In this document: positions 5,516-64,000 of the stretch, piece after piece
Layout: each line of letters begins with the position of its first letter
How positions within the stretch are numbered: position 1 is the first letter of the stretch
Source: an uncultured Desulfovibrio sp.
GTDB taxonomy: Bacteria; Desulfobacterota; Desulfovibrionia; Desulfovibrionales; Desulfovibrionaceae
Assembly (NCBI GenBank): GCA_913060505.1
Contig: CAJXRQ010000004.1
Span: forward strand, 62,001 to 126,000
DNA: 64,000 nt
Direction: 5' to 3'
Made by a program: the position numbers and the translations under genes
Notes under the pieces: model-generated
Database searches by the model: none
Told to the model about the DNA's origin: nothing
Seen by the model: the letters and a program-made list of their open reading frames with translations, nothing else

Positions 5516-7693
5516 GTGACGGGCAATGTCGGCTCTCGCCGTCTCATCATTTTTTCCATTATGGGTGGAGGGTTCGCTACCACTCTTGGGCTTGGAGCAC
5601 TTTCCTTTGTGCTGCCTTTGTTTGGCCTTGATACCAGCCTTGGTGACATTTGGATCGGGTCAGCTTTTTCTGCCTATTTTTTGGCTCGCCTCATTCTCGC
5701 TCCTCTGGCGGGGATGTGGGCTGATCGGTTTGGAGCAAAACACGTGCTGGTCGGTGCTGCACTGAGCGGTGTATTCCTTCCCTTGACCCATTTTCTTTTT
5801 ACGGGCCCCCAGTGGCTTTTTTTCATTCAATTTCTTCTCGGTATTTCTGGTGGGCTGATTCGTCCGGTGAGTATGGCGGTCATTGGTTCCCTGGGGGAAA
5901 AATCATCAAAGGCACGTAACTTTGGCTTGCATGCTGCGCTTATGAATGCCGCCTTCTTTTTGGGGCCTGTTCTGGGTGGGGTATTGTATTTCAATCGATC
6001 CTTTGTCCCTGTCGTCATTTTTCTCTGTCTGACAATGGCCGTTGCTGCAGGACTGTTTTATGCGCTTGTGCCGGGAGGATTGTTGACCTTGGCTCACCAT
6101 GAAATTGAGCAGGGGCGACATGACTCTTTCGCCCGTCCCGAAAAGACAGGATTGTTTGAATTGCTTTTGGCCATTGGTGGCAGAACCGCCGGGATTGGGG
6201 CTTTGCTTACTTTTCTTCCAATCTTGCTTGCCCGTCACTTCTATGAAAATCCTTTGGCGGTTGGTCTCGTGACCTCCGTACCTAGTCTTGTGGCCTGTGT
6301 CGGTCTGGCTCTTTTTTCAGGCCGTATGGCTTGGCGTAACAAAGGTCTGGTTGCCGGCATTGGCATGATTCTCAGCTCATTATGCATGTTTTTTATGGGA
6401 AACTGCTCTGAGGTTTGGCTATTCGTGCTGCTTGGCGCTGGCGTAGGTTTCGGGCGAGTTGTGTCCGTGCCGGTGTCCATGGAGTTGGCTTCTTTGTCGG
6501 GTGTTGCACAGGGGCGAGTTTTTGGACTTGCCAACGGCACAGCTTCTGCCGGGTTTGTTTTGGGGCCTTTGGTTGGTGGTGTAGTGGCTGCGGCATATGC
6601 CGACCTGGGGCCTGTCTTTCAGCTTTTTGGACTTGCCGGTATTGCGTTGTGTCTGCCGTTAGTTGCCGTAGCCCTGATCCCGAGGGTTTATCCGCGGGGA
6701 ATGGGCTTGGTCGTCGGAATTTTTCTTATGGCCGGAGTCTTGGGATTCGGCATTTGGGCACATCCCCGGGCCGAGAACGGAAAGAACAATATCTATACGT
6801 ATGGCGGAGCCGCCATGGGGACCATGTTTCATCTTACGTTGGAGGCTCCGAATAAGGATGTTGCTGACACCGCAGCCCGCAAAGCCCGAAAGACCATTGC
6901 GGCTTTGCAGCGTGATTTTGATTTTCGTAATAGATACGGCTCCATTGGTCGGGTTAATCTTCATGCCGGAGGTCGTGGCGCGCGTATTTCCGAACGGGCT
7001 TTTGCCTTGCTCGGCCGTGCTCTGGACATGGGGGGAAAAACTGATGGACTTTTCGACGTGACCGTTGGGGCGGTCACCGTGACTCCGCTTTATTTTGCCC
7101 GAAGCGAACGTGTTGCCGAGACTAAGCGGAACCTGATCGACTATCGTTTGGTCCGCATGGACCCGAAAACGTTGAACGTGACGTTGCCCAAGCTGGGGAT
7201 GGCCATTGACCTTGGTGGAATTGCCAAGGGCGCAGTTATAGATGGTGCTGTCGCTGTTTTACGAAAAAGTGGCATTACGGCTGGGATTGTGGAGGCTGGA
7301 GGCGATTTTTATTGTTTTGGCGATCGGCTCTGGACCGTTGGTATACGGCATCCCCGCGAAGAACGTTTGCTTGGCAATATTCGTGTACGGGAAAAGGGGG
7401 TTTGCGGTTCTGGAGACTATTATCAGTACGTTGTGGAAGTTCAAAATGGACATGAGGCAAGAAGGCACCATATCCTCGACATTGCCACAATGCATTCCGC
7501 AAACCGTAGCGTTGGGGTTACCGTTGTGGCGGAAAATGCGGAACGTGCCGATGCGTTGGCTACGACCATGCTTATTGCCGGGCCCGGACAGGGAGGGGGG
7601 CTCTTGAAAAAGTTCTTCCCAGGAGCATCCGCTTTATGGGTTCTTCCAGATCTTTCCGTTCAGGCTTCCGAGAATTTTCCCGCACTTGAATAA
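5516..7693 (+). CDS. MFS transporter fused to ApbE-type FAD:protein FMN transferase
   Basis: A 725-residue two-part protein. I chose GTG 5516 because CGGAGGA sits 5 bases upstream and an earlier frame start overlaps tetR. Residues about 8-400 form a 12-helix major facilitator permease, with a typical loop after helix 2 (GMWADRFGAKHV). A further hydrophobic stretch, GMGLVVGIFLMAGVLGFGIW, leads into an ApbE domain from about residue 425. ApbE hallmarks are GTMFHLTLEA, FDVTVG, DLGGIAKGAVIDGA, EAGGDFYCFG, VCGSGDYYQY, HHILD and the Mg/FAD-site segment ADALATTMLIAGP. ApbE enzymes attach FMN to Thr/Ser of exported flavoproteins. Here the usual lipoprotein anchor is replaced by the permease. Transport substrate and flavinylation target are unknown. 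Confidence 0.88.
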   Translation: MTGNVGSRRLIIFSIMGGGFATTLGLGALSFVLPLFGLDTSLGDIWIGSAFSAYFLARLILAPLAGMWADRFGAKHVLVGAALSGVFLPLTHFLFTGPQWLFFIQFLLGISGGLIRPVSMAVIGSLGEKSSKARNFGLHAALMNAAFFLGPVLGGVLYFNRSFVPVVIFLCLTMAVAAGLFYALVPGGLLTLAHHEIEQGRHDSFARPEKTGLFELLLAIGGRTAGIGALLTFLPILLARHFYENPLAVGLVTSVPSLVACVGLALFSGRMAWRNKGLVAGIGMILSSLCMFFMGNCSEVWLFVLLGAGVGFGRVVSVPVSMELASLSGVAQGRVFGLANGTASAGFVLGPLVGGVVAAAYADLGPVFQLFGLAGIALCLPLVAVALIPRVYPRGMGLVVGIFLMAGVLGFGIWAHPRAENGKNNIYTYGGAAMGTMFHLTLEAPNKDVADTAARKARKTIAALQRDFDFRNRYGSIGRVNLHAGGRGARISERAFALLGRALDMGGKTDGLFDVTVGAVTVTPLYFARSERVAETKRNLIDYRLVRMDPKTLNVTLPKLGMAIDLGGIAKGAVIDGAVAVLRKSGITAGIVEAGGDFYCFGDRLWTVGIRHPREERLLGNIRVREKGVCGSGDYYQYVVEVQNGHEARRHHILDIATMHSANRSVGVTVVAENAERADALATTMLIAGPGQGGGLLKKFFPGASALWVLPDLSVQASENFPALE

Positions 7694-8091
7694 TAACATT
7701 CGAAAAAGAATCATTTTTTTTTCGTTGATATACTGCTTTTGTGTTAAATATTATGTTTCCCATACCTTTTTTGCAAAAAAGTATACGATCCTTCTTTTTT
7801 GTGTATAATCTGTCGGTGGTGTCAGAAAAGAATGAAGTTAGCGCCTGCCAATGGTTTTGATTTGGGTTAGGCCGATTCCCTTTTTTTGGGGTTTTATTTG
7901 TTTGATTACATTTATGAAAACAAATTGGGAGTAAAGATTATAATTTGTCTGTTACCTTGACTTTTTTGCAACTACAAAGCATAAGAGTTGGTCTACGCTG
8001 GATACTTCCCGGCCACAGGTAATTGCACTACATTCGTCGTGCTTTTTTTTGGTCAGGGTTGTCACATATCTTTCTTTGGGAGTTTAATTCT
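7694..8091 (+). other. AT-rich leader upstream of the amino-acid ABC operon
   Basis: About 400 bases without a supported gene. The first part has T-runs after the MFS-ApbE stop that may weakly terminate, and a TATAAT word at 7804-7809 lacks a good -35. The best promoter is at 7957-7985. The last 100 bases would be the untranslated leader of the transporter operon. No riboswitch fold was recognised. Confidence 0.45.
7957..7985 (+). promoter_or_regulatory. Candidate sigma-70 promoter for the ABC operon
   Basis: TTGACT at 7957-7962 and CATAAG at 7980-7985 are separated by 17 bases, close to the vegetative consensus. Transcription would start near 7992, about 100 bases before the ATPase start codon. 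Confidence 0.45.
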
Positions 8092-8820
8092 ATGGCAATG
8101 ATTGAAGTGAACAAGCTTCATAAGTGGTACGGTGATTTTCACGTACTGCAAGGTATTTCGGAGAATGTCGAAAAGGGTGAAGTTTTGGTTATTTGTGGTC
8201 CGTCCGGGTCCGGGAAGAGCACCTTCATCCGGTGCATCAACCGGCTTGAGGACTACCAAAAGGGTACCGTCTTTTTTGACGGAAAGGATATTCATGACAA
8301 GGGTGTGGATATCAATAAACTGAGGGCTGAAATCGGCATCGTTTTTCAGCAGTTTAACCTTTACCCCCACCTGACGGTTCTCAAAAATGTTACTTTGGCC
8401 CCCATCAAGGTCAAGAATGCCCCCCGCGAAGAGGCGGAAAAACTGGCACTGAGTTTGCTTGAACGAGTCGGAATTCATGACCAGGCCCATAAGTATCCCG
8501 CTGAATTGTCGGGAGGGCAGCAGCAACGAGTGGCAATTGCGCGTTCTTTGGCAATGAAACCGAAGGTTATGCTTTTTGACGAGCCTACTTCAGCTCTTGA
8601 TCCGGAAATGATTAACGAAGTCCTCAATGTCATGAAGGATCTGGCCCGTGAAGGAATGACCATGTTGTGTGTGACACACGAAATGGGATTTGCTCGCGAA
8701 GTGGCCGATAGGGTAATTTTCATGGATGGGGGCGTTGTTGTGGAACAAGCTCCGCCAGATGAATTCTTCAGCAACCCCACGCACGAGAGAACAAAGGCTT
8801 TCCTTAAGGAAATCCTATAA
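8092..8820 (+). CDS. Polar amino-acid ABC transporter, ATP-binding protein (GlnQ/AapP type)
   Basis: The 242-residue ATPase energises uptake through the two downstream permeases. Walker A is GPSGSGKST, the signature is [15 protein letters not shown], Walker B is [14 protein letters not shown], and the switch histidine is in CVTHEMGFA. The start at ATG 8092 follows GGGAG; an upstream in-frame ATG lacks a ribosome site. It is first in the order ATPase, binding protein, permease, permease. It closely resembles the ATPase at 53713-54441, so the two systems are paralogous. Confidence 0.95.
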
Positions 8821-8872
8821 TAGAACGATTGTCGCTACTTGCAAATGAAAAGTTAATTGAGGAGGTTAACTC

Positions 8873-57195: not shown

Positions 57196-58818
57196 CTACA
57201 GGAACAGATACACTGCAGCCAGTCCAGTCAGAGACATTGTAATGGTGTACGGGAGAGCCAGCATTACCATGCGTCCATATGACAGACGAATTACAGGAGC
57301 AAGAGCGCTTGTCAGCAGGAAGAGGAACGCAGCCTGACCGTTAGGAGTGGCAACAGAAGGTATGTTGGTACCCGTATTGATGGCTATCGCGAGCTTGTCG
57401 AAATGTTCCATGACCTCCTTGACCTGCATTGCGACTCCCTGAGGCAACGTGGCAAGAACATCGGCTCTTGCCACGTGGGCGTCCGTCAGCTTGGCCATGA
57501 GAGCCTGGCCGCTCATTCCGATTCCGGGGATTGCATTCAGCACGTGGACGAAATGCAGCTTGGTTTCGGAAATATACACGGTGGCAACAAATACGTTATC
57601 CGAGATGGAGGAAAGCAGACCGTTGGCAATATAGTATGCTGCCAGTTGATCGTGTCCCTTCAGGCTCAAAACATAATTGATGATCGGGGCGAAGAGTTCC
57701 TGGGAATGAATGACTGCCACCACGGAGAAAAAGACAACGAGCAAAGCGGTGAAGGGGAGAGCCTCTTCAAACGCGGCACCAAGTTGGTGTTCTTCAGTAA
57801 CCCCGGTGCACGAAGTCAGCAGGACGATGACCGAAAGCCCGATGAGGCCGACTGCCGCCAAATGGAAAGCCAGGGCCGCAATGAGCCATATTCCGGTGAG
57901 AGCCTGGATGACCAGTACGATTTTTCCGTGCTGTCCCTGCTTCTCTTCCATTTCAATAGCTGTTTCCAGAAGGAAAGAGCGAATGTTGCCGGGAAGCTGC
58001 GCTCCATAGCCGAACAGTTTGAACTGTTCCACAGCGAGGCAGGTCAGCATTCCGATGACCAGGACGGGCATGGTCACCGGCATGGCGTGCAGGAAGAACG
58101 GAATGAAATGCCACCCCATTTCTCCGCCGACCAGCAGGTTCTGCGGCTCTCCGACGAGAGTGCAGACGCCGCCCAACGCAGTACCGACTGCGCCGTGCAT
58201 CATGAGGTTGCGAAGGAAAGCCCGGAATTCGAGAAGTTCTGCGCGATTTTGTTCCTTGATGGTGTCGTCGCAGCAAAGGTCGTGGGAATCGCCATATCCC
58301 TTGCCGGAAACAAAACGGTGGTATACGTTGTAGAATCCGTAAGCAACAGCCATGATAACCGCTGTGACTGTCAGGGCGTCTAGGAAAGCTGAAAGAAAAG
58401 CACCTGCAAAGCAGAAGAGAAGAGCGATGGTCTTTTTCGAGCGGATGCGGACCAGAATACGTGTAAAGGTGAACTGAAGGAAGCCTTTCATGAAGTAGAT
58501 GCCAGCAACCATGAAAATAAGCAGCAGGATAACTTCAAAGTTCTTGTAGGCCTCGTGGTAGACGGTTTCAGGAGTGGTCATTCCCAGGATGACTGCTTCA
58601 AGTGCCAGAAGACCGCCAGCCGGAAGCGGGTAACATTTCAGGGCCATGGCCAAGGTGAAAATGAATTCGGCAATGAGTGCCCAGCCCGCCACAAACGTAC
58701 CGGCCGTGAACATGAGTACCGGATTGAGAATCAGGAAGGCCACGAGGACCTGTTTGTACCATACAGGCGCATTGCCGAGAAAGGTTTTGGCAAGCGTCTG
58801 CGTCAACGAAGTTTTCAT
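57196..58818 (-). CDS. nhaB: Na+/H+ antiporter NhaB
   Basis: The 540-residue membrane protein starts at ATG 58818 with AAGGAG upstream. About 12 helices are visible. NhaB-type signatures include the N-terminal [20 protein letters not shown], the central [20 protein letters not shown] and the late [14 protein letters not shown], with [18 protein letters not shown] further on. It exchanges cytoplasmic Na+ for external H+. It lies downstream of the SLC13-like and Usp-like genes, separated from the former by a terminator hairpin. Confidence 0.95.
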
Positions 58819-58937
58819 TCCAATCTCCTTCAATCACCAAAAAATGCCCCGAAGGTCAGGCTCTGGGCCGTTAACCATTCGGAGGCAGATCTGATGAGTG
58901 GCTGTATTTCGTCTATTCGGAGTTTCCCCAACGGATA

Positions 58938-58971: not shown

Positions 58972-60771
58972 TCAATAGAACATCATCAGCGCGGTTATCA
59001 TGACCACCATGTAAAGAACTGTCATGCCAGCGCCGCTACGGACATAGTCGACGGTTCTATAGCCGCCGGGCCGCATAATCAGAGCGTTGACCTGATGTGT
59101 CGGGAGCACGAAGGTGTTCGATGCTGCCACAGCCACGGTCAGGGCTGCTACGCGCGGGTCTACTCCTGCATTAATGGCCATATTCATGGAGAGGGGCACC
59201 AGGAGAACCGTTGCGCCCACGTTTGATGCTACTAGCGTGAAGAATGAGGTCAGGATGCCTATGACCGTTAAAAGCATAACCGGTGTTGGTGTTCCAAGCG
59301 CCGCCATGATGGTGTCCGCAATGTATTTTGCCGCACCGGTGTTCTCAAAGGCCATTCCCAGCGGAATGAGTCCGCCCAGCAGGAAAACCGTCATCCAGTC
59401 CACGGACTGATACGCCTCGTCAATGGTTAAAACCTTTGTCAGGACCATTCCCAAGGCGCCTGTCAGTAACGCAATGGAAAGCTGAACGTGGAAGCCGAGG
59501 ATCATGATAAGGGAAACCACTAGCCAGAGCAATGCCAGTTTTGCCTTCTCCGTCCGCAGTAATTCACCCTTAACATTTTCAGTAAAAACAAGGTCCGGCA
59601 GACCTTTGAGCATATGGAACATTTCCCAACGTCCGTGCAGCAGCAAGGCGTCGCCGGTTTCAATGACGATATCGGTCAGGCCGCTGACAAAGATTTTTTC
59701 ACCTCTGAAAATGGCCAATGGTGAAACCTGGAAACGTTCTCTGATGCGCAAATCCCGAAGTGTTTTTCCCACGAATTCGGAACGGGGCGTCACTATGCCT
59801 TCCATGATGCCTGCATTGTTGGGAGAGAGTTCTTCCGCGAATGAGGACAATTCAGGCTGGAGCGCCCACCCCATATCTTCTGCCATGTGTTCCACGAATT
59901 CATCCGGCCCGACCACAACAAGATGATCTCCCGGTTGAATGGTTTCTTCCGAGTTTGGTGCAAAGATATGTGAAGTTCCGCCTTTTCTGGCAATGGCCAC
60001 CAGTGTACAGAAGTAGACTGGGCGAAGTTCCAGGGCATGGAGAGGTCCATCCCTTTTCCAGGTATCAGGAACATGGAGTTCGAAAAGCGATCCTACATTG
60101 CTGTAGGTGCTGGCAAGAACAGAAGACATGGGGCCGGTGTTTTCGTCTTCGGCTCTGTTTGGCAGTATGAAACGGCCAAGCAGGATGAAGTAAACGAGTG
60201 CCGCAGCAATCAGCAACAGGCCAACCGGCGTGACGCTGAACAAGCCGAAAGGTTCATACCGTGTGCCACCCACCACCATGAGGTCGTTCAGCAAAATCAG
60301 AGGGCTTGATCCCACGAGCGTGAGGCAGCCTCCGATGATTGCACAGAATCCCATAGGCATGAGAAGCCGGCCTACAGGGACTCCTGTTTGGTTCCCGATA
60401 CGTTTGGCGGCAGGCAAAAAGAGTGCTGCCGCTCCGATGTTTTGCATGAATCCGGAAATGATAGCGACAGTTCCGGAAATAAGCGTCATGATTCTTGATT
60501 CGCTCTTGCCTGCGAAACGGAGGATTACCCGGGCCATGGAGTTCATGACGCCGGTTTTGTCCAGCCCCGCGCCGATTATTATCACCGCGATAATGGACAC
60601 GACCGCATTACTGCTTAATCCGCTGATAGCCTGTTGCGGTGTGACAAGCCCCAGAAGGGGCAGGAGCACCATCATTATAATGCCCACAACATCAACCCGA
60701 ACCCATTCGAAAATGAACAATAGGACAGCAAAAAGGAGTACGGCCATAACCGTAATAATTTCAGGGGTCAT
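58972..60771 (-). CDS. SLC13/DASS-type transporter with two RCK_C (TrkA-C) domains
   Basis: The 599 residues start at ATG 60771 after AAGGA. N-terminal helices (VVGIIMMVLLPLLGLVTPQQ) and C-terminal helices (SIALLTGALGMVLTKVLTID; LVASNVGATVLLVPLSMNMA) flank two cytoplasmic RCK_C domains at about 240-320 and 325-410. Members move divalent anions, such as sulfate or dicarboxylates, usually with Na+. The Na+ antiporter encoded next would fit a Na+-coupled carrier. The substrate is not decidable; sulfate is attractive in this organism type. Confidence 0.88.
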   Translation of the reverse strand: MTPEIITVMAVLLFAVLLFIFEWVRVDVVGIIMMVLLPLLGLVTPQQAISGLSSNAVVSIIAVIIIGAGLDKTGVMNSMARVILRFAGKSESRIMTLISGTVAIISGFMQNIGAAALFLPAAKRIGNQTGVPVGRLLMPMGFCAIIGGCLTLVGSSPLILLNDLMVVGGTRYEPFGLFSVTPVGLLLIAAALVYFILLGRFILPNRAEDENTGPMSSVLASTYSNVGSLFELHVPDTWKRDGPLHALELRPVYFCTLVAIARKGGTSHIFAPNSEETIQPGDHLVVVGPDEFVEHMAEDMGWALQPELSSFAEELSPNNAGIMEGIVTPRSEFVGKTLRDLRIRERFQVSPLAIFRGEKIFVSGLTDIVIETGDALLLHGRWEMFHMLKGLPDLVFTENVKGELLRTEKAKLALLWLVVSLIMILGFHVQLSIALLTGALGMVLTKVLTIDEAYQSVDWMTVFLLGGLIPLGMAFENTGAAKYIADTIMAALGTPTPVMLLTVIGILTSFFTLVASNVGATVLLVPLSMNMAINAGVDPRVAALTVAVAASNTFVLPTHQVNALIMRPGGYRTVDYVRSGAGMTVLYMVVMITALMMFY

Positions 60772-60815
60772 ATGAAGTCCTTGCAATTACAATATAAGAT
60801 GTTGTCAGGCCTGTT

Positions 60816-61424
60816 TTATTTGGCCCGCAACGTCGCACGGGTATAGACGGGAATGACCTTCCTGTTTTTGCAAACGACAGCGGAGTCATCCATGACATAA
60901 CGGAATTGTGCATCTTCCTGATACATTTTGCCAATGACGCTTTCTTCATCGCCGTGACGGACTTCATGTGAAAAAAGCAATCCGGCATTGGCGGCTCTGT
61001 CTGAGAACCTATCGATGTTTTCTTCGGATCGGGCCTGGAAAACAGAGAAGTCGCGTCCTGTGGTATCAAGATTGAGGGCCACCAGGCCACTCCGTGTCTT
61101 TGCAGCCATATCAATGGCATAATCCATGACGCCGTCAGAGAAAGAAGATCCTTTGCAGACGACAAGAATTTTGCAATGGGTGCAATCACAGTTTTCTTTT
61201 ACAGCGATTGTTTCGTTTTGATTGGGAACGTTTTCGACTGCCGCTTTGCGGTTGCCGACAAGCCGTTTGAAGAGTGCCTTCATAGTACATCCTCCTGATG
61301 TATCCGTGAAATGCTGTTCGCGGCCGATAACCCATGCTCCTACATGGCATGTGTTGCAGTTGTGCTCGGCCTGTGCCTCGTAATGCTTGTTCACCATGTT
61401 TTTTACAGCGCTGAAGAGAGTCAT
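60816..61424 (-). CDS. Usp-like protein with a Cys-rich N-terminal extension (two possible starts)
   Basis: The frame from ATG 61424 (after GAGGAG) gives 202 residues. A second ATG at 61283 (MKALFKRLV) also has a strong GGAGG site and gives 155. The C-terminal part is a universal-stress-like alpha/beta domain (CKILVVCKGSSFSDGVMDYA). The extension carries CNTCH in EHNCNTCHVGAW, a heme-c-like CxxCH but without a signal peptide, and a further CDCTHC follows. It is first in the order with the SLC13-like and nhaB genes and may modulate the transporters. Confidence 0.7.
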   Translation of the reverse strand: MTLFSAVKNMVNKHYEAQAEHNCNTCHVGAWVIGREQHFTDTSGGCTMKALFKRLVGNRKAAVENVPNQNETIAVKENCDCTHCKILVVCKGSSFSDGVMDYAIDMAAKTRSGLVALNLDTTGRDFSVFQARSEENIDRFSDRAANAGLLFSHEVRHGDEESVIGKMYQEDAQFRYVMDDSAVVCKNRKVIPVYTRATLRAK

Positions 61425-61991
61425 GTTTCACTCCTCAAATTTTAGAGTTTTGGAGATTGTGTTTCAGCCTCTCGCCCTTCCTTAGATCAAAACACATGCC
61501 AAGAATGTTGAAGTTTGTAATATTTTGTTTTTGTTGAATTTATTTCTTTTTGTAACGTTTTTTGCCGTATGAAATGATGCAAAATGCAACGCTGAAAACC
61601 AAAAAAACGTTGATTTGTATTTTGTTTCGGTGGTGTAGGTGGGATATTTATGTTGCAGAATGAAACAGTGTTGAGCCTAATTTCTATATATAAATATAAC
61701 TGAAGCGCTTTATTCTTTTTTTATCAATCTGACTTTTATGTTTGTTCGTTTTTTCTCAAAATATATTTACTGTAATTTCAAGTTAATAGGTGAAAATAGC
61801 TTTTGTTTTACGCATCACCAGCCCATCATGACTGTGGAGTGGGCATATTTGAAAAGGGTGGTGTTGCGAAGTGCAACCTTAACAGCCTCGTTGAGCCGTG
61901 TTATTTAGGAATACTAAGTGCCATAAAAGATAGTGGATATGTTGATTTGGGCATACGATTTTAGCTTTGACAACATGTTTGGAGAGCAGAA
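61425..61991. other. AT-rich intergenic region between divergent genes
   Basis: About 570 bases separate the Usp-like gene (minus) from the receiver-Lon gene (plus), so both promoters lie here. The middle (about 61500-61800) is strongly AT-rich. A weak hairpin (GTTGC-GAAGT-GCAAC) is near 61873. I saw no gene, CIRCE-like heat-shock operator or riboswitch. Confidence 0.5.
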
Positions 61992-64000
61992 ATGGGCTGG
62001 TTTAACATCAGAAAGGGTGCTGCCCCGAGCACTGAACCTCAGGAAGAAAAAGAGCCGGAACGGTTGCAGAAAGAAACAACCACTCCGACTGAACGCGAAC
62101 TGCTCCGTGAGCGATTGGAAGCTGCGGAATTGCCGGACGAAATATACGAGGCAGCCCATGCCGAATGCGAGCGGATTGCATCTGTTGCCCCCTCTTCTCC
62201 CGAATATGCGATTGGGTTGAACTATCTCGAATTTCTTTTTTCCCTGCCATGGAATATTACGACCAAGGATGACTTGGATATCGTACGTGCCGAAAACGTG
62301 CTCAATGCTCGCCATTTTGGTTTGCAACGAGTCAAGGATCGAATTCTTGAGTTTCTGGCAGTGAAGAATTTGCGAGGGAAACATACCTCCTCCATTCTGT
62401 TGGTGGATGACGAGGCTATTGCCCGTGAGAACCTGTCCATTGTTTTTGAAAATGACGGGTATAACGTTCGCGCTGTGGGCAACGGGCTTGAAGCTGTTGC
62501 AGCCATGGAAAAAGAGGTTGCGGACGTCATTGTCTCCGATCTCAAAATGGATGGCATGGATGGTCTTGAATTGTTGAAGGTTGTCCGCAAGCGATGGCCG
62601 GACACCAAGGTCATCATGTTGACCGGTTATGCCACGGTCAAAACCGCCGTGGATGCAATGCGTCAAGGGGCTGATCAATACCTTGGTAAACCTGTTAATC
62701 TGACTAAATTGCGTTCGTATGTTGCCGAAATGTTGGAGCAGAGTGTGCTCGCCCGGCAACTGCATGGCCCCGTGTTGTGTTTTACAGGGCCTCCGGGAAC
62801 AGGAAAAACATCCATAGGTAAGGCTATCGCAGAAGCCCTGGGGCGGAAGTTCTTCCGTCTGTCTTTGGCAGGGCTTCGGGATGAGGCCGAATTGCGTGGG
62901 CACAGACGGACCTATGTCGGTGCCATGCCCGGACGCATCTTGCAGGGAGTGCAAAAGGCGGGGGCACGAAATCCTGTCATCATGCTCGATGAAATGGACA
63001 AGGCTGGTCAGGATTTTCATGGTGACGCCACTGCTGTTTTACTGGAGTTGCTTGATCCGGAGCAGAATGCCGCTTTTGGCGACCATTACATGGGGTTGCC
63101 TTTTGATCTTTCCGGTGCGCTGTTCATTTGCACAACCAATGCTTTGGAGCGCTTTCCGGCTCCGTTGCGAGACCGAATGGAAGTGATAGAGTTTTCCAGC
63201 TATACACGGCAGGAGAAATTTGAAATTGCGACCCGGTATCTTGTTCCTGAGCAACTGAAGCTGCATGGTCTTGATGACCAGCTTGTAAATGTGGAACCGG
63301 ATGCGATAACTTCAATTATTATGCAATATACTCGTGAGGCTGGGCTACGCGGGTTGCGTAAGCAATTGGCGTCATTGTGCAGAAAATTGGCCCGGCAGGC
63401 TCTGTCGGAGGGGGGTAGCCAGCTGACAGTGGATGCTGCCATGGCCGAGAAGCTGCTTGGTGCACCTCCCTTTGCTTCAACTATGGCCCAATCCGAAGCA
63501 AAGGTCGGGTTGGCGACAAGTCTGGTCTGGACCGAGAACGGAGGGGAGATCATCTTTGTTGAAACTGCCAGAATGCAAGGCAGCAAACAACTTATCCTGA
63601 CCGGTTCTTTGGGGGAAGTGCTGCGGGAATCAGCCCAGACAGCCCTCAGTTATATTCGGAGCCATGCTCAGAAGTTCGGGATTGAACCGGATTTTTTTGA
63701 ATCTTCGGACATTCATGTGCACATTCCCGCAGGGGCGGTTACCAAGGAAGGGCCTTCTGCCGGAGGAGCCATTACCTTGGCGTTACTTTCCTTGCTGACG
63801 GGCAAGCCTGTGCGCAGGGATGTCGCTTTGACGGGAGAATTGTCCTTGCTTGGCGAAATTCTCCCGGTGGGAGGAATTCGGGAAAAGCTCATGGCAGCAC
63901 AGCAGGCCGGAATTTCCTCAGTGATACTGCCCAAGGGGTGCGCCTCCTCGCTGGCTTCCATGGATGATGAAATAGTGCAGGATCTTCACATCCATCTGGT
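61992..64000 (+). CDS. Lon-type AAA+ protease with inserted receiver domain, C-terminus outside window
   Basis: The frame starts at ATG 61992 after GGAGAG and is open to the window end (669 codons). Residues 1-35 are a charged tail; the usual 300-residue Lon substrate-binding N-domain is absent. Residues about 36-127 match the Lon region before the ATPase (YLEFLFSLPWN; LQRVKDRILEFLAV). A response-regulator receiver occupies about 134-250 (ILLVDDE, phospho-site Asp183 in VSDLKMDG, Thr211, Lys233 in LGKPV). The chain then resumes as Lon at GPVLCFTGPPGTGKTS (Walker A 266-273), MLDEMDK (Walker B), and the S16 protease with Ser589 (EGPSAGG) and Lys632 (GGIREKL). It probably degrades substrates in response to phosphorylation. 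Confidence 0.92.
   Translation, partial: MGWFNIRKGAAPSTEPQEEKEPERLQKETTTPTERELLRERLEAAELPDEIYEAAHAECERIASVAPSSPEYAIGLNYLEFLFSLPWNITTKDDLDIVRAENVLNARHFGLQRVKDRILEFLAVKNLRGKHTSSILLVDDEAIARENLSIVFENDGYNVRAVGNGLEAVAAMEKEVADVIVSDLKMDGMDGLELLKVVRKRWPDTKVIMLTGYATVKTAVDAMRQGADQYLGKPVNLTKLRSYVAEMLEQSVLARQLHGPVLCFTGPPGTGKTSIGKAIAEALGRKFFRLSLAGLRDEAELRGHRRTYVGAMPGRILQGVQKAGARNPVIMLDEMDKAGQDFHGDATAVLLELLDPEQNAAFGDHYMGLPFDLSGALFICTTNALERFPAPLRDRMEVIEFSSYTRQEKFEIATRYLVPEQLKLHGLDDQLVNVEPDAITSIIMQYTREAGLRGLRKQLASLCRKLARQALSEGGSQLTVDAAMAEKLLGAPPFASTMAQSEAKVGLATSLVWTENGGEIIFVETARMQGSKQLILTGSLGEVLRESAQTALSYIRSHAQKFGIEPDFFESSDIHVHIPAGAVTKEGPSAGGAITLALLSLLTGKPVRRDVALTGELSLLGEILPVGGIREKLMAAQQAGISSVILPKGCASSLASMDDEIVQDLHIHL

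Follow-up and report, generated by a model that had tools for sequence, protein, structure and literature searches.

A Lon protease with a receiver domain ahead of Walker A in an uncultured Desulfovibrio: a candidate proteolytic arm of a branched two-component system

Gene content of the locus

We analysed a window of 64,000 nucleotides (positions 62,001 to 126,000 of contig CAJXRQ010000004.1) from an uncultured Desulfovibrio sp., at the end of which lies a gene for a protein combining a response-regulator receiver with a Lon protease, hereafter receiver-Lon. The features of the locus are as follows.

57196..58833, minus strand: NhaB-type Na+/H+ antiporter gene (PF06450, E 3.2e-216)
58972..60786, minus strand: CitMHS/Na_sulph_symp-type anion transporter gene with TrkA_C domains; a relative lies near receiver-Lon in 14 of 25 loci
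60816..61424, minus strand: divergent small gene, weakly Usp-like (PF00582, E 0.015, 16.3 bits against a cut-off of 24)
61486..61501, minus strand: imperfect sigma-54-like box TGGCATGTGTTTTGAT ahead of the divergent gene, kept in 6/6 intergenic regions
61576..61590, no strand assigned: palindrome copy 3, one mismatch to the pattern GTTGC-N4-TGCAAC
61652..61666, no strand assigned: palindrome copy 2, one mismatch to the same pattern
61863..61877, no strand assigned: palindrome GTTGCGAAGTGCAAC, candidate activator site upstream of receiver-Lon, recurring in aligned intergenic regions
61992..64000, plus strand: receiver-Lon gene, 691 codons (691 aa), with its stop at window-equivalent 64067 on the contig
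62091..62378, plus strand: residual Lon linker helices, about residues 34-129, placed by model helices and alignment with the genome's own Lon
62394..62723, plus strand: receiver domain, residues 135-244, with D139, D140, D183, T211 and K233 (PF00072 Response_reg, E 3.2e-29)
62775..63194, plus strand: AAA+ domain, residues 262-401 (Pfam AAA match)
63429..64000, plus strand, continuing past the window end: Lon protease domain, residues 480-681, with the dyad S589 and K632 (PF05362 Lon_C, E 3.4e-72)

The receiver-Lon gene is a single frame from the ATG at 61992, preceded by an in-frame stop at 61968 and open to the window end; the uninterrupted 691 codons and the Pfam domains bear out the fusion that an earlier note had read from the DNA. 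All residues named there (D139, D140, D183, T211, K233, S589 and K632) are at the positions given, so that the receiver has the acidic pair, the phospho-Asp, the Thr/Ser and the Lys of a response regulator. In the AAA+ part, Walker A is represented by K272 and T273 and Walker B by D333 and E334, together with N383 and R395, among the sensor and arginine residues of such ATPases; alpha0 is the last linker helix. A Lon_lid match at residues 424-474 separates the AAA+ and protease domains, and the protein scores above the cut-off of the NCBIfam model 'lon' (TIGR00763; 679.9 against 608.05). Of the three hallmarks of LonA, the AAA+ ATPase and the S16 Ser-Lys dyad are present, while a Lon N-terminal substrate-binding domain was not found by Pfam at E 0.001, only about 130 residues preceding the receiver. 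The earlier note was thus right that this domain is missing, with the correction that the linker helices before the insertion (about 34-129) are kept. The same genome also encodes an ordinary Lon, i.e. one without a receiver.

Directly downstream of receiver-Lon, on the opposite strand, come first the gene of a sigma-54 activator that has a receiver of its own, and next that of a HAMP histidine kinase. Receiver-Lon and the activator gene are convergent and their 3' ends overlap by 23 bp. The locus therefore pairs the Lon regulator with a transcriptional activator bearing a receiver, and the notion that phosphorylation would act on proteolysis instead of regulating transcription is not supported here.

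No Pfam family was found at E 0.001 in the product of the divergent small gene (60816-61424), which has several cysteines in its first half; it is a possible partner or substrate of receiver-Lon. Beyond the window end (L005, 12527-15993), genes for an amino-acid kinase, an amino-acid permease and a PAD_porph deiminase lie together, a set whose Pfam names would be consistent with agmatine catabolism.

Insertion point and predicted structure

Aligned with the genome's own ordinary Lon, which runs uninterrupted over the junction, receiver-Lon leaves the Lon sequence after LAVKNLRGK and resumes it at GPVLCFTGPPGTGKT, just as first read. The earlier note had also proposed a survey of homologues for the insertion point, and the same joint was found in 28/28 aligned fusions: the last linker helix is followed by the receiver and then by the (V/I)LCF strand leading to Walker A. 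Ordinary Lons likewise differ in length at the insertion loop, which may therefore be a tolerant site.

The part of receiver-Lon within the window (669 aa) was modelled as a monomer with AlphaFold2 from a 40-row alignment (mean pLDDT 87.2). The model has linker helices at 34-44, 49-63, 70-84, 97-107 and 112-129, the last of which ends at the insertion and leads to the first receiver strand (134-138); the last receiver helix (237-257) leads in turn to the Walker-A strand (261-265). The receiver is confidently predicted and its tethers are short, i.e. about four and three residues, with a pLDDT of 71 in the block 251-260 of the exit linker suggesting a possible hinge. When the model was searched with Foldseek, all 50 matches shown were Lon chains (bacterial, yeast or human).

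Distribution and origin of the fusion

With the junction-plus-receiver stretch as query and a full-length match to it as the definition of the fusion, 28 of 60 related genomes, our own included, were found to encode it (18/36 in the genus and 10/24 elsewhere in the order). A 13-row profile detected it in at least 48 genomes, ours among them, in a sample of 395 from the phylum, among the best nine candidates per genome and excluding the partial matches in G064 and G207, and in at least 24 of 198 Nitrospirota genomes among the best 18 candidates per genome. Named genome records contributed at least four full-length fusions among the 80 loci listed, i.e. those of Desulfobacter vibrioformis, a Desulfocurvus MAG, a Desulfovibrionales MAG and a delta-proteobacterial MAG. 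Among the best nine candidates in each of 369 gammaproteobacterial genomes, no fusion was found at E 1e-45; this search was run without a positive control and does not imply absence.

In a tree built on the AAA+ and protease part, with the receiver omitted, 55 fused Lons were split from 74 others by a single branch (SH-aLRT 99). These sequences remained after near-copies had been dropped by a k-mer filter, and the tree was made by a quick method without bootstrap. The sequence comparison thus makes it likely that the sampled fused Lons share one origin, short of proof since the tree is unrooted.

Four of 16 genomes searched (G097, G076, G371 and G457) have 3-5 further Lon-type matches beyond the fused Lon, so that several Lons can coexist in a cell. 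The homologue of G007 (L020; L219, 2915-4983) is read in two frames with a break near 434-442 in query numbering, reflecting either a sequencing error or a broken gene.

Conservation of the active sites

We compared 73 homologues without any residue filter, namely 28 loci from the related genomes, 29 from the phylum (the own locus counted once), 12 from Nitrospirota and four from named records. They are mostly best-scoring matches, and 18 of the 48 phylum fusions and 12 of the 24 Nitrospirota fusions have no locus in the count. D139, D140, D183, K233, K272, T273, Y308, D333, E334, N383 and R395 are kept in 73/73, and T211 in 72/73, with a Ser in L037. R453, S589 and K632 are kept in all 71 homologues whose frame extends that far, leaving out L038 (cut at a contig end) and the broken frame of G007. 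The prediction that the protease is active fits this conservation.

Outside the 73, an outlying and weaker fusion match (L179 of G076, 6840-8846) has a Glu in the acidic pair and a Ser for the Thr, and the activator match near it is weak. The switch may therefore be altered in some members.

Linkage to the kinase and the second receiver

Gene neighbourhoods were compared at 25 loci, i.e. 20 picked from fused genomes, the four named loci and our own. Activator and kinase matches are present in 24 of them, the exception being a contig of 6.2 kb; the 24 include L179, although its activator and kinase matches are weak and probably non-cognate. A kinase homologue (E up to 1e-60) is found at the fusion locus in all 28 related genomes with the fusion, whereas at the same threshold only five of the 32 fusion-free relatives have a match anywhere, with identities of 66 % (G001), 59 % (G008) and 35-38 % (G042, G050 and G056). 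In G008 the genes of activator and kinase are found at the end of a contig. G001 (L217, 8502-9347) lacks a whole block, comprising the transporter, the Usp-like gene and receiver-Lon, but has NhaB, activator and kinase; it offers a natural example of the system minus the proteolytic arm.

For the 45 phylum genomes with both a fusion and a listed second match, the highest-ranking non-fused hit of the fused-receiver profile, among the matches listed, is situated within 12 kb of the fusion in 36 and elsewhere in 9; our own genome and two lacking a listed second match were omitted. In one of these two (G356, which has the same coordinates as G458) the best non-fused receiver match is elsewhere. 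Fused receivers are slightly more alike to the receivers of their cognate activators than to those of non-cognate ones (0.490 against 0.460; for alpha1, 0.521 against 0.470; 22 pairs), and of 5000 shuffles 0 and 0.16 %, respectively, reached the cognate likeness. This excess is not separable from ancestry, since shared ancestry alone could give it. L037 (poor predicted start) and L179 (unrelated activator) were left out of the pairs, there was no activator for L038, and L182 was paired with its nearest activator, though another at the locus is more alike.

A described counterpart in Desulfovibrio vulgaris

The architecture itself is already known, and we rejected the idea that it was unreported: novelty, which the earlier note implied, is contradicted by the accessible text of Rajeev et al. 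2011 (PMC3333781), where DVU3303 of Desulfovibrio vulgaris is described as a Lon-containing response regulator and a need for phosphorylation is proposed. Direct control of proteolysis by phosphorylation, as the earlier note suggested, would fit the conserved active sites and the kinase at the locus, but the same hypothesis stands in that paper. Its accessible text presents DVU3303-3305 as a possible 'three-component system' with DVU3304 as kinase and DVU3305 as sigma-54 activator, the latter regulating the DVU3303-3305 operon and DVU3302-3298 (PMC3333781). Relatives are noted there in other Desulfovibrio, Thermodesulfovibrio, Thioalkalivibrio and Dechloromonas, and the Lon regulator accompanies the activator relatives of Thioalkalivibrio and Dechloromonas in most such genomes (PMC3333781). 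The accessible part of a 2015 sigma-54 study gives the same targets (PMC4641369). A 2023 fitness study, in its accessible part, names the anion transporter DVU3299 as a target, and reports pairwise cofitness above 0.9 for DVU3303-3305, all three being detrimental in chlorate (PMC10102598).

As far as these accessible texts go, the common fitness pattern might in part be a polar effect, because DVU3303-3305 are handled as a single operon. The polarity problem is removed at our locus, since receiver-Lon is not co-directional with the kinase in the window and in five relatives of the genus.

In the literature searched, mostly without subscription journals, we found neither a description of where the receiver is inserted, nor data on phosphorylation, ATPase or protease activity for any member, nor a test of receiver phosphorylation or its control of proteolysis. 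What the present analysis adds is the insertion site, the single branch of fused Lons, the active-site conservation and the co-occurrence with the kinase.

Regulatory DNA

Three copies of GTTGC-N4-TGCAAC with 0-1 mismatch lie between receiver-Lon and the divergent gene, and can be made out, somewhat altered, in an alignment of six intergenic regions from species of the genus. Counted over the whole window, the palindrome shows no enrichment, with 27 matches where 21.55 are expected (two mismatches at most). The sigma-54-like box scores 14-15 of 19 against the sigma-54 consensus, and no strict sigma-54 promoter was found beside receiver-Lon. In agreement with the D. vulgaris results, palindromes and box may be sites of the activator. 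A regulon reading from a genome-wide palindrome scan was rejected as too unspecific, with 13 matches against 4 for a reversed-pattern control.

Proposed mechanism and alternatives

Two-component control of proteolysis usually runs via adaptors and ClpXP. For the present locus we put it at slightly better than even that receiver-Lon belongs to a branched two-component system, in which one kinase feeds both transcription and proteolysis and the receiver gates the Lon motor. Receiver-Lon would be the proteolytic arm: the adjoining kinase most likely passes phosphate both to the receiver of the activator and to D183 of receiver-Lon, and the phosphorylated activator would turn on the transporter operon divergent from receiver-Lon and probably receiver-Lon itself. 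Phosphorylation of D183 would most likely be relayed to the ATPase or to hexamer assembly, because in the model the receiver sits on short tethers between alpha0 and the Walker-A strand; proteolysis could go up or down, activation being the favoured sign. Given that the ordinary Lon substrate-binding domain is absent, receiver-Lon probably has a restricted substrate range, linked to the stress or anion response in question.

We count in favour of the branched model the conservation of residues, the co-occurrence with the kinase, the gene linkage, the nearby non-fused receiver match in 36/45 genomes, the recurring palindromes, the geometry of the model and the published D. vulgaris findings. 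Against it we count the possible polarity in D. vulgaris, the likening to DVU3303 by description and gene content, the 9/45 genomes with the non-fused receiver match elsewhere, the slightness of the receiver likeness, the altered L179, the imperfect sigma-54 box and the lack of palindrome enrichment.

A different role for the receiver is conceivable and, in our judgement, unlikely while deserving serious thought: it may have replaced the N-terminal domain as a substrate-docking adaptor, phosphorylation picking the protein to be degraded by an always-competent protease, as RssB and CpdR do for ClpXP. The partner activator, whose receiver is similar, would then be a natural substrate, giving negative feedback. 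The missing N-terminal domain speaks for such a role, as do the mere 205-338 residues, receiver included, ahead of Walker A in the fused proteins measured and the proximity (within 12 kb in 36/45, among the matches listed) of the best non-fused receiver match. In the model, however, the receiver is held on short tethers beside the AAA+ core, not on a flexible end. Moreover, a Lon that destroys the activator predicts opposite effects of losing either gene, whereas the D. vulgaris genes share one fitness pattern in the accessible part of the 2023 study (PMC10102598), though polarity could mask a difference.

Rather improbable, and more so than docking, is that the receiver serves chiefly as a structural part, or acts as a phosphate sink that tunes the activator via the shared kinase, with Lon activity independent of it. 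The joint encoding of the kinase and a second receiver would allow such a sink; the lower confidence of the exit linker (251-260, pLDDT 71) would be compatible with weak coupling, and one member (L179) has an altered receiver. Such a role nevertheless leaves unexplained both the invariant ATPase and protease residues and the single insertion site beside the Walker-A strand (28/28 aligned).

That the gene runs past the window end might hint at an assembly error or a chance fusion of two genes, but the chance of this is negligible: a frameshift or misassembly, which the earlier note had named as grounds for refutation, is excluded by one open frame to the stop on the contig and by the identical joint in many independent genomes, named records included.

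Returning to the branched system, we judge the odds about even for the fuller statement that the fused Lons are a lineage of single origin whose AAA+ core has the receiver built in after alpha0 and before the Walker-A strand, the kinase directly switching the protease and, through the second receiver, transcription. With the switch within the protease, a few point mutants could show whether the receiver gates the AAA+ motor directly, and receiver-Lon could show whether one kinase divides its signal between making and destroying proteins.

Comparison with known systems

The nearest known system is that of DVU3303, to which the window locus was matched by description, domain make-up and gene content, not by sequence comparison. 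To the extent that the accessible text describes it (PMC3333781), both combine a receiver and Lon in a single chain, alongside genes for a kinase and a sigma-54 activator, and both are adjoined by membrane, UspA-type and anion-transporter genes. They differ in arrangement: the D. vulgaris genes are regarded as one operon, whereas receiver-Lon is convergent with the activator-kinase pair.

With LonA (TIGR00763; PDB 6u5z, 6on2 and 4ypl), receiver-Lon shares the AAA+ module, the lid and the Ser-Lys protease, and differs from it in lacking the N-terminal substrate-binding domain and in carrying a receiver before Walker A. As in NtrC-type response regulators, a kinase-controlled receiver stands ahead of an AAA+ ring; in contrast to these, the output is a Lon protease rather than a sigma-54 activating ATPase with a DNA-binding domain, and the receiver follows residual Lon linker helices instead of standing at the protein start. 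RssB and CpdR are receiver adaptors that control proteolysis by ClpXP, and share with receiver-Lon the use of a receiver in regulated proteolysis. They are, however, separate proteins acting on ClpXP, whereas receiver-Lon has its receiver within the protease chain.
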